Source of the DNA: Stakelama saccharophila
Lineage (GTDB): Bacteria > Pseudomonadota > Alphaproteobacteria > Sphingomonadales > Sphingomonadaceae
DNA: 64,000 nucleotides
Reading direction: 5' to 3'
NCBI RefSeq assembly: GCF_032229225.1
Contig: NZ_CP135076.1
Span: 2,771,001-2,835,000 of the forward strand
Shown here: positions 6,071 through 39,811 of the stretch, in pieces
How positions within the stretch are numbered: the first letter of the stretch is position 1
How the letters are laid out: each line of letters begins with the position of its first letter
Made by a program: the position numbers and the translations under genes
The notes under the pieces: model-generated
What the model saw: only the letters and a program-made list of their open reading frames with translations
Database searches by the model: none
Told to the model about the DNA's origin: nothing

Positions 6071-6229
6071 CAAGGATGCCTCTGCGAAACCCATTCTCGT
6101 CTCCCCGGCGGAGGCCGGGTCCACCGAGCCGCTTAGCTTAAGCGTTTGATATTGCGGCCAAGTGGATGCTGAAACAAGTTCAGCATGACGAAAGAGGCTT
6201 CCGTTTCGCGCCTCTTGCAGAAGTCCCCT
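6071..6229. repeat. Dispersed 159-bp intergenic repeat, copy 1
   Basis: This segment matches 63283-63441 in the same orientation at 152 of 159 positions without gaps. It is flanked by a perfect 11-base direct repeat, CCCTGCAAGGA, at 6066-6076 and 6226-6236. On the minus strand it yields a spurious peptide containing MLNLFQHP, a string I associate with untranslated repeats in sphingomonad genomes. The preceding 5932-6070 holds no gene I can support. Confidence 0.85.
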
Positions 6230-6230
6230 G

Positions 6231-6354
6231 CAAGGAGAGGTGGCAGTCCGAAGGACTGACGGAGGGGTGTCCCCGCCGGCCGGAATACCCCTCCACCGCG
6301 CTGCGCGCGGTCCCCCTCCCCCTCCGGGGGAGGATCTGTCGGCAGATTGCCTCG
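6231..6354. repeat. Paired hairpin (BIME-like) repeat after pth
   Basis: This is a mosaic of perfect hairpins in a GGAGGGG...CCCCTCC frame: CAGTCC/GGACTG around a GAA loop (6244-6258), ACCGCGC/GCGCGGT around TGC (6295-6311) and CCTCCCCC/GGGGGAGG around TCC (6315-6333). The same frame with other stem sequences occurs at 14954-15112. It ends just short of the transaldolase stop codon and may help terminate transcripts arriving from both sides. Confidence 0.75.
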
Positions 6355-6371: not shown

Positions 6372-7025
6372 TCAACCGATGGTCTGGCCGGTCTTCTGCC
6401 AGTCGGCGAGAAAGCCTTCGATCCCCTTGTCGGTCAGCGGGTGGTTGACGAGCTGGCGGATCACCTTGGGCGGGGCGGTCATCACGTCGGCGCCGATCCG
6501 CGCGCTTTCCAGCACATGGACGGGGTGGCGGACGCTCGCGACCAGGATTTCGGTCTGAAAGTCGTAATTGTCATAGATCAGCCGGATGTCGGATATAAGC
6601 TGCATCCCGTCGAAGCCGATATCGTCGTGCCGGCCGACGAAAGGCGAGATGAAGCTGGCCCCCGCCTTCGCCGCGAGCAGCGCCTGGTTCGCCGAAAAGC
6701 ACAGGGTGACGTTCACCATCGTGCCGTCATCGGTCAGCGCCTTGCACGTCTTCAGCCCGTCGATCGTCAGCGGCACCTTGATCGCGACATTGTCGGCGAT
6801 CTTCCGCAGCACCTCGGCTTCCTTCATCATCGTTTCGTGATCGAGCGCGACGACCTCGGCCGAAACCGGCCCCGGCGTAATCCCGCAAATCTCCTCGACG
6901 ACCTCGAGGAATTTGCGGCCCGACTTGTGGATCAGGGAAGGATTGGTGGTGACGCCGTCGACCAGCCCGGATTCCGCCAGCTCGCGGATTTCGGCGGTGT
7001 CGGCGGTATCTACGAAGAATTTCAT
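6372..7025 (-). CDS. fsa: Fructose-6-phosphate aldolase-like transaldolase
   Basis: A 217-residue short-form transaldolase of the FSA/TalC subfamily; length and sequence match these single-domain enzymes rather than the roughly 320-residue classical transaldolase. It begins [15 protein letters not shown], has the signature GVTTNPSLI near residue 24, and the Schiff-base lysine is K83 in [20 protein letters not shown]-type and [10 protein letters not shown] blocks follow. The open frame extends to 7064, but the family start is ATG 7025. The enzyme moves a dihydroxyacetone unit or cleaves fructose 6-phosphate; which reaction dominates cannot be read from sequence. It is divergent from a DUF2490 gene across a 123-base gap with a perfect palindrome. 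Confidence 0.93.
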
Positions 7026-7053
7026 TGCAGACCTCGATCGGTGATTATGACAG

Positions 7054-7066
7054 TCTTGTAACAAGA
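7054..7066. promoter_or_regulatory. Palindrome in divergent fsa/DUF2490 promoter region
   Basis: TCTTGTAACAAGA is a perfect 13-base palindrome about one central base. On the minus strand a CATAAT hexamer, a five-of-six -10 match, lies a few bases downstream toward fsa. A regulator site is plausible; the regulator is unknown. Confidence 0.35.
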
Positions 7067-13333: not shown

Positions 13334-14926
13334 ATGCCGAAGCCGCGCCTGCCCGCCTTTTTCTGCGCCCTCGGGCTCGCCGTCGCCTCGGCCGCGCACG
13401 CGCAGGATGGGCCGAACGCCGTACCCGTCGCCGTGGCGCCGGAACTGGGGGATACCAATGCGGGCCGGCTGCTCGTCTTCGCGCAGCCGAAAACTGGCGA
13501 GGAAAAGCCGGACGCCGATGTCGACACCTCCGCCTTCGATCCCACCGGCACGGCGGTGGCGGCGCGCGAGGTGACCGATTTCCGCCCCGGCACGGTGGCG
13601 CTGGTGGGCAACCGGACCGATGTCTTTCCCAAGCCGTTTTCCGAACTGGCGCCCGGCACCTACCGCTTTCAGGCGGTGCTCGATCGCGATCACAGCTATG
13701 CCTATGACGGCCGCGGCCAGGGCGATCTGGAATCGCCGGTCGTCACCGCGACCCTGCCGGGGCCGATCCCCACGCTGACGCTGGATCATGTCGTGGCGGG
13801 CCACGGTTTCGAGGAGATGCTGGCGGCGATGCCGGCCGACAAGCAGGCGGCGTATCGCGCCAGCCTGGAATCGTTGAAGCCGGTGGACCTGCTGAGCGTC
13901 ACGATGAGCGACTTCTGGGGGCGGCCGACCTATTTCCACGGCTTCGTCGCGCTTCCGCCCGGCTATGATGCGGACGCAGCGACGACCTATCCCACCGTCT
14001 ATTCCGATCTCGGCTTCAGCGCGACGATCGATTCGGTGAAGGCCTATGCCACGCGCACGCGGCACATGATGGAAACGGGCGACCTGCCGCCGATGATCTG
14101 GGTGTTCCTCGACCATCACATCGCCACGGGCACGCACGAATTCGCCGATTCGAAGAATAACGGCCCGTGGGGCACCGCGCTCGTCGACGAACTAATCCCG
14201 GCGCTGGAGGAGCAGTACCGCATGGATGCGCGGCCGGCCGGACGCTTCCTCACCGGGCACAGCTCCGGCGGCTGGTCGACGCTGTGGCTGCAGGTGAAGC
14301 ATCCGACGGTGTTCGGCGGCACCTGGCCGACCTCGCCCGACCCGAGCGATTTCCACGATTTCACCAATGTCGATCTCTACGACGCCAACGCCAATTTCTA
14401 TCACGGGCCGGACGGCCGCGCGCTGCCGCTGATCCGCCGCGACGGCAAGGTGGTGGCGACGATCGAGCAGTTCGCCGAGCTGGAGCAGGTGCTGGGCCGC
14501 TATGGCGGTCAATTCGCGAGCTTCGAATGGGTCTTCTCGCCCCGCTGCCCCGACGGCCGGCCCTGCCCGATCTTCGACCGCGCGACCGGTGACGTGGATC
14601 CGCAGGTCGCGCGCTACTGGATCGAGAATTACGACATCGCCCGCATGGTGAAGCGCGACTGGCCGCTGATCGGCAAGAACCTGAAGGGCAAGATCCACCT
14701 GGTCGTCGGCACCGCCGACACCTTCTATCTCGACGGCCCGGCCCACCGGTTGCAGCGCGTGCTCCGCGATCTGGGCGACACGGCGCAGTTTCGCTTCCTG
14801 CCGGGCAAGACGCATTTCGATCTGTTCGCCAAGGACGACGATCCGCTTGCGCTGATGAAGACCATCGCCGGGGAGATGTATGCGGTTGCACGACCGGGGA
14901 AGAAGTGGAAGATCGCCGTCGAATAG
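13334..14926 (+). CDS. Exported alpha/beta-hydrolase esterase (putative esterase family)
   Basis: A 530-residue protein with a signal peptide (about 1-23, ending in AAHAQ). An N-terminal beta-rich region of about 170 residues precedes an alpha/beta hydrolase domain of the PF00756 type (enterochelin esterase/antigen 85-like). The nucleophile serine lies in FLTGHSSGGWSTLW, and LVVGTADTFYLDGP with PGKTHFDLF provides the likely acidic residue and histidine. The order of features matches exported esterases acting on oligosaccharide or siderophore esters, but the substrate is not known. It begins 8 bases after the serine protease stop and is probably co-transcribed with it. Confidence 0.85.
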   Translation: MPKPRLPAFFCALGLAVASAAHAQDGPNAVPVAVAPELGDTNAGRLLVFAQPKTGEEKPDADVDTSAFDPTGTAVAAREVTDFRPGTVALVGNRTDVFPKPFSELAPGTYRFQAVLDRDHSYAYDGRGQGDLESPVVTATLPGPIPTLTLDHVVAGHGFEEMLAAMPADKQAAYRASLESLKPVDLLSVTMSDFWGRPTYFHGFVALPPGYDADAATTYPTVYSDLGFSATIDSVKAYATRTRHMMETGDLPPMIWVFLDHHIATGTHEFADSKNNGPWGTALVDELIPALEEQYRMDARPAGRFLTGHSSGGWSTLWLQVKHPTVFGGTWPTSPDPSDFHDFTNVDLYDANANFYHGPDGRALPLIRRDGKVVATIEQFAELEQVLGRYGGQFASFEWVFSPRCPDGRPCPIFDRATGDVDPQVARYWIENYDIARMVKRDWPLIGKNLKGKIHLVVGTADTFYLDGPAHRLQRVLRDLGDTAQFRFLPGKTHFDLFAKDDDPLALMKTIAGEMYAVARPGKKWKIAVE

Positions 14927-14953
14927 GCGAATGCCCTTCACGGAGCCGAGAGT

Positions 14954-15112
14954 CCTCCCCGAGCTCAGCTCGGGGAAGGGGGACCATGCGAAGCATGGTG
15001 GAGGGGCCGCCCGAAGGGCGAACAGCATATCTTTTCTTTGCACGGCTTCACCGCTTCGCGGTGCCCCTCCACCGCCTTCGGCGGTCCCCCTCCCCAAGCA
15101 AGCTTGGGGAGG
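14954..15112. repeat. Two inverted hairpin units (BIME-like) between esterase and ada
   Basis: Two units in opposite orientation share the frame CCTCCCC-stem-GGGGA followed by GGGGGACC-stem-GGTGGAGGGGC. Stems in the left unit are CCCCGAGCT/AGCTCGGGG (14957-14975) and ACCATGC/GCATGGT (14983-14999). In the right unit they are ACCGCC/GGCGGT (15071-15085) and CCCCAAGC/GCTTGGGG (15092-15109). Stem bases differ between units but pairing is preserved. The segment separates two converging genes. Confidence 0.8.
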
Positions 15113-15152
15113 AATGGGTCATTCGCTCGTCACGATGCGCCAGCCCGGGCGC

Positions 15153-16193
15153 TCAGTCCTTCACGCCCTCGCGCTTCCTGAGCACCCGCTTGCGCTCCAC
15201 GCCATAAGCATAGCCGCCCATCGATCCGTCGCTGCGCTGGGCGCGGTGACAGGGGATGACGATGGAAACGTGGTTCGCGCCGCACGCCGTGCCGGCCGCG
15301 CGCACCGCACCGGGATTGCCGGCGGCGATGGCGAGGTCGCTATAGCTGCGCGTCTCACCGGCGGGGATTTCGCGCAGCGCCTGCCAGATCGCTTCCTGAA
15401 ACGCCGTGCCCTGCACGTCCAGCGGCAGGTCGGTGTCGCGGCCGGGGCTTTCCACCTCCGCCACCACGCGCGCGGCCAGATCGCCGAGGGCCGCGCCGCC
15501 GGGCTCGATATCGGCATTGGGAAAGCGCTCGGCGAGGGCGGCTGCATCCTCGTCAAAGGACACGCGGCACAGCCCCTTGCCGGTCGCCGCGATCAGGAGC
15601 GGGCCAAGGCTGGTGTCGGCGATCGCCCAGCGGATCGTCACCCCCGCCCCGCCGCGTTTCCAGGCGCTGGGCGTCATGCCGAGCCGCTGGTTCGCGGTCT
15701 CGTAGAACCGGCTCGGCGCGGAATAGCCCGCTTCGTAGATGGCATCGGTCACGCTGGTCTCCATTGATAGCGCCTCGCGCGCTCGCCTGGCCTTCAGGCC
15801 GCGGGCATAGGCGGCCGGGGTCACCCCCGTGGCGCGCTTGAACAGGCGGTGGAAATGATGCGGCGCATAGCCGACCCGCGCGGCGAGTTCGTCGAGCGGC
15901 ACCGCCGTCTCCGCCTGCTCGATCAGGGCAACCGCCTTCGCCACCGCCACCCGGTCGCGCGCCACCTCATCGGGCTTGCAGCGCAGGCAGGCGCGATAGC
16001 CGGCGTCGCGCGCCGCGCCGGGCGTGCCGAAAAGACGACAATTTTCCCGGCGCGGCCGGCGCGCGGGGCAACTCGGCCTGCAATAGATGCCGGTGGTATC
16101 GACGGCGACGACGAAGCGCCCGTCGAAAGCGCGGTCGCGGCGTTCGAAGGCGGCCCAGGCCGTAGCGTCATCCATGGCGGGCGAAGCGGTCAT
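15153..16193 (-). CDS. ada: Ada: DNA alkylation repair methyltransferase and transcriptional activator
   Basis: A 346-residue bifunctional Ada. The N-terminal zinc domain carries four cysteines at C38, C42, C69 and C72, the same numbering as in Escherichia coli Ada, where C38 accepts methyl groups from phosphotriesters. An AraC-type helix-turn-helix follows (LDELAARVGYAPHHFHRLFKRATGVTP). The C-terminal O6-alkylguanine methyltransferase domain has the active site IVIPCHRAQRSDG. Once methylated it would activate its own adaptive-response genes. No alkB or alkA neighbour is present. It is convergent with the esterase and divergent from atpH. Confidence 0.97.
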   Translation of the reverse strand: MTASPAMDDATAWAAFERRDRAFDGRFVVAVDTTGIYCRPSCPARRPRRENCRLFGTPGAARDAGYRACLRCKPDEVARDRVAVAKAVALIEQAETAVPLDELAARVGYAPHHFHRLFKRATGVTPAAYARGLKARRAREALSMETSVTDAIYEAGYSAPSRFYETANQRLGMTPSAWKRGGAGVTIRWAIADTSLGPLLIAATGKGLCRVSFDEDAAALAERFPNADIEPGGAALGDLAARVVAEVESPGRDTDLPLDVQGTAFQEAIWQALREIPAGETRSYSDLAIAAGNPGAVRAAGTACGANHVSIVIPCHRAQRSDGSMGGYAYGVERKRVLRKREGVKD

Positions 16194-21615: not shown

Positions 21616-21712
21616 CCCCTCCCGCTTGCGGGAGGGGTCAGCGGCGGGAATGCCGGAACGGCAGGCCCTCCCCATCAGGCCCTCCCCCGACCCCTCCCGC
21701 GAGCGGGAGGGG
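21616..21712. repeat. Triple-hairpin repeat between atpD and atpC
   Basis: CCCCTCCCGC/GCGGGAGGGG pairs around TT at 21616-21637 and again around GA at 21691-21712. Between them TGCCG-GAA-CGGCA forms a third hairpin (21651-21663). The second large hairpin's right arm provides GGGAGGGGAG (21705-21714), the only good ribosome binding site of atpC. The same module is found before the SDR gene at 39713-39811. Confidence 0.85.
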
Positions 21713-39712: not shown

Positions 39713-39811
39713 CCCCTCCCGCTTGCGGGAGGGGTCAGGGGAGGGGCTGAATCTTTTACCAGTTGCTTGCGGATGCCGCCCCTCCCCGGCCCCTCCCGCA
39801 AGCGGGAGGGG
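39713..39811. repeat. Twin-hairpin repeat between acyl-CoA dehydrogenase and SDR genes
   Basis: CCCCTCCCGC/GCGGGAGGGG occurs twice as a perfect hairpin, at 39713-39734 (TT loop) and 39790-39811 (AA loop). It is the same module as in the atpD-atpC gap. Its end, GGGAGGGGAG (39804-39813), lies 5 bases before the SDR ATG and is its ribosome binding site. Confidence 0.85.

Follow-up and report, generated by a model that had tools for sequence, protein, structure and literature searches.

Which element do the paired hairpins between two convergent genes of Stakelama saccharophila represent, and which enzyme could have spread them? To address this question we analysed a stretch of 64,000 nucleotides (hereafter the window; GCF_032229225.1, NZ_CP135076.1, positions 2,771,001 to 2,835,000 of the forward strand) together with the complete 3,185,593-base genome and related genomes. 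A preliminary description, made from the sequence alone, had noted two inverted units with a fixed purine/pyrimidine frame and differing but perfectly paired inner stems, as well as a third related element, and had interpreted them as REP/BIME elements under selection for structure and moved by a RAYT transposase. The observation was confirmed by our data, whereas the interpretation was only partly supported: the repeats are REP/BIME-like, but RAYT as their partner is not supported. Repeats of the same kind instead flank genes for a small predicted nuclease of the DUF559 family (PF04480), which is the likeliest enzyme behind them.

Anatomy, copy number and pairing of the U1 repeats

The inverted pair was found to be one base wider on each side than previously described. 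Each unit (U1; 45-59 nt in the seed set) reads, from outside in, TCCTCCCC-[hairpin A]-GGGGAGGGGGACC-[hairpin B]-GGTGGAGGGG, hairpin B mostly having a G-N-A loop. The stems are as described and paired in both units (hairpin A GAGC/GCTC against AAGC/GCTT; hairpin B ATGC/GCAT against GCC/GGC). The other element combines a right unit of the same family with a left unit of a sister type (type B, GGTGGC-nnnnn-GAA-nnnnn-GACGGAGGGG). The window contains two further inverted pairs of another family of triplex layout (CCCCTCCC-GCNNGC-GGGAGGGG), which by eye resembles the D family that flanks a different DUF559 clade in this genus. Next to the second element lie two additional repeat-like hairpins, and about 145-150 bases somewhere in the 1 kb to its left recur next to two other pairs of the genome at 94-95% identity. 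A search for known structured RNAs gave no Rfam match at gathering score in the window.

Table 1. Positions of repeat units and neighbouring genes within the window.
Position	Strand	Feature	Score
14953-15113	.	Inverted pair of U1 units, read as a non-autonomous element, between convergent genes; by eye similar interiors at genome positions 809036-809182 and (inverted) 3066599-3066734	
14953-15006	+	U1 unit: TCCTCCCC-GAGCTCAGCTC-GGGGAAGGGGGACC-ATGCGAAGCAT-GGTGGAGGGG (one extra A in the purine arm)	56.5 bits, E 1.6e-11 in the window
15007-15063	.	Interior of the pair (57 nt)	
15064-15113	-	U1 unit, inverted: stems GCC/GGC and AAGC/GCTT	49.7 bits, E 6.1e-10 in the window
6224-6334	.	Second element: type B unit, interior and U1 unit	
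6224-6267	+	Sister unit (type B: GAGGTGGC-AGTCC-GAA-GGACT-GACGGAGGGG), outer hairpin decayed	26.7 bits, E 1.5e-4 in the window
6268-6287	.	Interior (20 nt); one base different from the interior of the pair at genome 842407-842516, and of like length and start in several more	
6288-6334	-	U1 unit: stems GCGC/GCGC and C-GGA-G	72.4 bits, E 2.9e-15 in the window
6095-6191	.	Two further repeat-like hairpins (GTCTCCCCGGCGGAGGCCGGG and GGATGCTGAAACAAGTTCAGCATGACG) beside the second element	
13334-14926	+	Esterase-like gene (PF00756), left convergent neighbour	
15153-16193	-	Ada-type methyltransferase/regulator gene (PF02805, PF12833, PF01035), right convergent neighbour	
6372-7064	-	Transaldolase-like gene (PF00923); the 6224-6334 element lies just 3' of it	
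39713-39811	.	Inverted pair of another family of the same layout (CCCCTCCC-GCTTGC-GGGAGGGG-TCA-GGGGAGGGG and its inverse), like the D family by eye	
21616-21712	.	Second inverted pair of that family, partly decayed	

To evaluate whether these units are more frequent than expected by chance, the genome was searched with the exact inner frame, which occurs 25 times against 0 for the reversed control pattern. A covariance model built from 15 copies yielded 73 hits at E<=1, of which 57 reach E<=1e-4. Of 70 hits laid out (three of the weakest, 17.8-19.2 bits, were omitted), 56 form 28 close pairs and 14 are single, while about 1 close neighbour is expected by chance. All 28 pairs are head to head (+ then -), with interiors of 17-23, 30-33 and 46-67 nt and three long interiors of 302, 350 and 377 nt. 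In five other genomes, for which 150 of 392 hits were analysed, 39 of 44 close neighbours show the same order, 35 of them with 26-32 nt inside. Intergenic position was read for the window elements only.

Next we investigated whether pairing is retained despite sequence change. Parsing 43 units by the frame alone (up to 2 mismatches per block) revealed paired bases at 178 of 184 positions of stem B, against 57% when arms were swapped between copies, and at 61 of 66 positions of stem A, against 17%. On a model-fitted alignment of 59 matches, 98.0% of 794 cells are paired, with 98 both-sided changes against 26 in shuffles. Unpaired stems and a copy number near chance had been named beforehand as observations that would contradict the preliminary reading; about 2% of cells do not pair, and copy number is far above chance. 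Selection for structure is compatible with these data but not proved, as copying, gene conversion or fold-back replication would also keep the arms complementary. Inside the units, a search for a conserved subterminal motif gave at most 1 bit at one position and mostly far less.

The window insertion is absent from all 10 orthologous loci that could be read, i.e. those of 80 relatives in which an esterase homologue was found convergent with ada. In four of these the stop codons are 6, 6, 14 and 40 bp apart, and in six other sequence lies between. By eye, this intergenic region of other Sphingomonas genomes (loci L094, L096, L101 and L122) holds an extra open frame and other repeat-like hairpins (GTCATCCCCGC... 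or GTCACCCCGGCC...), so the spot is open to insertions.

Search for a partner enzyme

The preliminary description was right that no RAYT-type transposase lies in the window. Moreover, a profile search for PF01797 gave no hit in the entire genome at E<=10. Of 61 genomes examined, 37 of them of the genus (own included), PF01797 occurs at E<=0.001 in 3 genus genomes (G006, G010 and G033; G numbers denote genomes of the set, L numbers fetched loci), one of which has a single U1, while U1 is present in 36 of 37. None of 19 fetched Y1 loci carries a U1 unit at E<=0.1, and the U1 consensus has no GTAG or CGTC head.

The U1 pairs with long interiors led to another candidate partner. The pairs at genome positions 3058072-3058519 and 2303084-2303572 each enclose a DUF559 gene. 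For the third long pair (3005205-3005606) a degenerate DUF559 was considered but not accepted, as the best tblastn match was 4e-4 over 28 residues only and the right unit is weak (18.3 bits, E 0.77). Among the full list of the own genome (both units E<=1e-3) and the 150 hits analysed for the five other genomes, 6 inverted pairs enclose 250-600 bp, and all 6 enclose a DUF559. PF04480 is present in 36 of 37 genus genomes, and the one without (G006) has one U1 hit. Three genes of the genome score 106.7, 92.6 and 132.7 bits against the Pfam gathering score of 20.6.

To quantify this association we collected 125 genus DUF559 loci, leaving out PF04480 hits under about 70 bits (except one own hit of 41 bits) and any beyond the hits analysed. 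Scoring the best inverted repeat across the gene, 111 of 125 loci reach the control 99% level, which is reached by 1.05% of 2000 random intervals and by 0 of 246 shifted intervals; 14 loci do not reach it. Flank comparison placed 123 loci (2 of 125 lacked flanks) in 42 genomic sites, 41 of which have at least one flanked locus. Sites whose flanks have diverged would be counted twice and 42 is thus an upper bound, but the link still exists at many places. Sites are shared by up to 16 genomes, so the gene-bearing form rarely moves. In two cases the same intergenic site holds DUF559 elements of different families in different genomes (L265, L268, L278; and L211, L261, L279), as if some sites were preferred. 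In L023 (1484-1993) the DUF559 reading frame runs into the flanking unit, so that its last residues (PLHHASHGPPPRAGED) are encoded by the repeat.

The flanking repeats fall into families: U1/type B (AB), CCCTCTCCCC...GAGAGGGTTGGGAGAGGG, CCCCTCCC...GGGAGGGG..., and a two-hairpin CCCTCTCCCC...GGGAGGGTGAGGG type. On a tree of 123 proteins (L205 and L282 were left out, as their frame was not read) the coarse repeat labels need 12 changes against 68 when shuffled, but this counts orthologous loci many times. With one locus per site (41 rows) the labels need 6 changes against a shuffled mean of 19.3 (minimum 12 of 300), and the AB label needs exactly 1. The protein tree has few columns and many open forks.

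We then compared U1 copy number between genomes, using counts with stricter filters among at most 101 candidates per genome. The 25 genomes with an AB-clade DUF559 have a median of 55 U1 hits and the 12 without a median of 5.5 (p 7.9e-6; 2.8e-5 after removing the flanking units; 2.5e-4 for the 31 more complete genomes). The 40 AB-type genes include L262, placed by the tree although its repeats were not recognised, and loci with only one recognised AB unit were counted as AB. Non-AB DUF559 counts correlate with U1 copies as well (rho 0.56), but add little beside the cognate ones (partial 0.31, p 0.06; AB 0.72, partial 0.60). Some genomes with AB-type DUF559 have few U1 (G035 4, G032 7, G036 11, G005 12, G014 13), and one without has 25 (G023). 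The relation is weaker once ancestry is allowed for: on a pntAA tree, a single-gene tree next to one of the DUF559 sites itself, there are 7 independent pairs, about 5 of which go the same way and 0 the opposite way (median p 0.0625), and the relation is thus suggestive, not settled.

At this pntAA-pntAB junction, read in 35 genus genomes, 12 genomes have DUF559 with U1 units, G016 has a short U1 pair, G017 a single hairpin, and 21 no U1 unit at E<=0.5. Of 7 genomes in which a looser criterion had indicated a repeat at the junction, only G016 has a U1 pair. The outer hairpin in G017 (L389; TCCTCCCC-GTTCC-GGGGAGGA) is all that is left of U1 between the two genes, like a deletion scar between the two palindromic ends. 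In G009, one of the 12, the gene lies beside a short U1 pair, not inside it, without a unit on its far side (L281, L391). The state changes 11 times on the best tree and at least 8 times on supported branches. A named example is Sphingomonas parapaucimobilis NZ_CP155755.1, with DUF559 between the transhydrogenase genes.

The DUF559 proteins are under purifying selection, with a median dN/dS of 0.20 and none of 136 overlapping ortholog pairs above 1. R6, E13, D41, E52, D54, G55, H58, D67 and R70 are invariant in 62 sequences. The structural model (pLDDT 86) matches 3hrl and the domain of the homing endonuclease I-Bth0305I and, more weakly, Vsr (Foldseek E 1e-4 and 3e-3 for I-Bth0305I and Vsr; matches 3r3p and 1vsr), and a profile search agrees for 3hrl and 3r3p. 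These data predict a nuclease of the Vsr / EDxHD fold. YcjD, the E. coli member, was placed in the PD-(D/E)XK superfamily earlier (PMC1189080).

Outside the genus inverted flanks are less regular. They exceed 95% of 207 shifted intervals at 25 of 35 loci (30 loci of the class search and five of six other out-of-genus loci, the contig-edge locus L202 being left out), and 95% of 161 intervals at 16 of 27 loci of a phylum-wide set, which includes two loci of the same family, and at 9 of 16 outside the class. Of 10 named plasmid loci, 6 exceed 95% of 40 intervals, among them Pseudanabaena and Deinococcus, while Synechocystis was just under and Azospirillum brasilense, Picosynechococcus and Photobacterium did not. 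These sets are top-scoring PF04480 hits, not random ones, and in the phylum-wide and plasmid sets one control interval each scored high (48 and 42.5, respectively). In E. coli K-12, where the BoxC triplex repeat has 23 copies (PMC4666352), copy 9 lies about 170 bp from ycjD (1351407-1351760), past its 3' end (L329, 11206-11430). By eye a second, partial hairpin overlaps the 3' end itself, and the other side has none of this type. By simple arithmetic such a neighbour is expected about 0.004 times.

Interpretation and alternative explanations

We consider the two window elements non-autonomous, REPIN-like copies of a mobile repeat family (U1 and its sister type B), whose dedicated enzyme would be a DUF559 nuclease encoded at a few chromosomal sites inside an inverted pair of the same units. 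Our analysis establishes the anatomy of the units, their paired stems and head-to-head arrangement, their lineage-specific presence, the cognate link between nuclease clade and repeat family over different sites, a copy number that goes with the cognate nuclease (with the reservation on ancestry given above), and purifying selection on the nuclease. It is by inference only, no movement or cleavage having been observed, that we propose nuclease activity, triplex formation and mobilisation: the nuclease would recognise the hairpin / pyrimidine-purine-purine (possible intrastrand triplex) structure when a strand is exposed, nick it, and so let the pair be copied to other places, while the gene-bearing copy would mostly be inherited vertically and gained or lost as a block. 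It would thus do the work of a RAYT with an unrelated enzyme. We assign this reading a probability of roughly 0.55.

Homing, in which DUF559 is a free-standing homing-type nuclease gene that cuts and invades existing repeat pairs, the short pairs being its uninvaded targets and spread by something else, appears unlikely but remains possible. I-Bth0305I is among the closest solved enzyme domains, and the short pair of G016 lies where 12 other genomes have DUF559. However, of the 28 pairs of the own genome only the two that hold DUF559 fall in a site cluster with DUF559 loci of other genomes, the 21 junctions without U1 indicate that the whole block is what comes and goes, and homing does not by itself explain more U1 copies where the gene is present. 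Somewhat less likely still is a Vsr-like mismatch or structure nuclease kept by the host, around which repeats gather because it needs or tolerates them, for example as its own regulator. Such a role is in line with vertical inheritance, purifying selection, weak matches to NCBIfam and Pfam Vsr models (below their cut-offs), and the requirement of Caulobacter VsrA, a DUF559 protein, for the SOS response of cells lacking a cytosine methyltransferase (PMC12907096), but it does not explain repeat flanks at 41 of 42 sites, clade-specific repeat families, or up to 10 PF04480 matches per genome.

That DUF559 is mere cargo of repeats moved by an unidentified enzyme, as in a composite element, is improbable but remains possible. 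There is no direct evidence of DUF559 action, and Y1 is the only other enzyme for which we searched, but all 6 long-interior pairs (250-600 bp) found among the hits analysed hold DUF559, and the same link is seen for several unlike repeat families and, less regularly, in other classes. Bidirectional terminators or mRNA-stabilising hairpins, suggested by the convergent neighbours of the window pair, are the least likely explanation: the orthologous gene pair has spacers of only 6 to 40 bp in four genomes, the units as read lack a run of T after the hairpins, and their presence is lineage-specific.

More speculatively, and with less than even odds, DUF559 nucleases may be, across several bacterial phyla, the dedicated and domesticated mobilisers of BoxC/PIT-type triplex repeats (E. 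coli YcjD for BoxC included), i.e. a second REP-enzyme world that converged on the RAYT way of life with a restriction-endonuclease fold, moving structured DNA by nicking hairpins or triplexes. BoxC/PIT repeats have been catalogued for decades without a known enzyme, and DUF559 is still named 'unknown function' in Pfam. A specific link turns both into a testable system, offers an enzyme for repeats that have no RAYT, would add a restriction-fold nuclease to the enzyme types that spread DNA within genomes, and gives a second reading for DUF559 results explained so far as mismatch repair.

Comparison with known repeat systems

Repeats of this layout, DUF559 proteins, and repeat-plus-enzyme systems are each known. 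Limited literature searches, confined to open-access papers without supplements (among those consulted PMC12306157 and PMC3733652), revealed no account of the three together. The flanking families share the layout of BoxC / PIT / intrastrand triplex motif repeats (Holder et al. 2015, PMC4666352), i.e. a pyrimidine arm, a purine arm and a mirror purine tract (CCTCCCC / GGGGAGG / GGAGGGG here), inverted pairs, intergenic location and wide spread. The pyrimidine/purine hairpin was found in 223 of 246 DUF559 flanks against 5 of 245 control stretches, and the mirror tract matches at 0.93 against 0.74 when shuffled, with 143 of 223 beyond shuffles at 0.05; within U1/type B alone this mirror test is not convincing (22 of 74). 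This layout reads naturally as the previously described fixed purine/pyrimidine frame, with the free stems as loops. In U1, however, the second loop holds a whole hairpin (B), and the main text of that paper names no enzyme, with no occurrence of ycjD or of words beginning with DUF, nuclease or endonuclease.

The EDxHD homing endonuclease I-Bth0305I and Vsr share the fold of the DUF559 model, but sit in introns or next to methyltransferases and are not known to lie between repeat units. As in MITEs, the elements are short, apparently non-autonomous and have inverted ends, with interiors much shorter than in the gene-bearing form, but the ends are hairpins rather than simple terminal repeats, and no target-site duplication has been established. 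With REP/BIME/REPIN and RAYT (TnpA-REP) the system shares high-copy palindromic units in inverted pairs, a dedicated enzyme gene between two inverted units, co-diversification of enzyme and repeat, about ten times more repeats with the cognate enzyme, as Nunvar et al. 2010 reported for REPs with and without their RAYT (PMC2817692), and a few-copy, vertically inherited enzyme (PMC2817692, PMC8049555). It differs by the absence of a Y1/HUH enzyme and of a GTAG or CGTC head in the U1 consensus, by a non-homologous enzyme with a predicted PD-(D/E)XK fold, and by units that carry two hairpins and a mirror purine tract.
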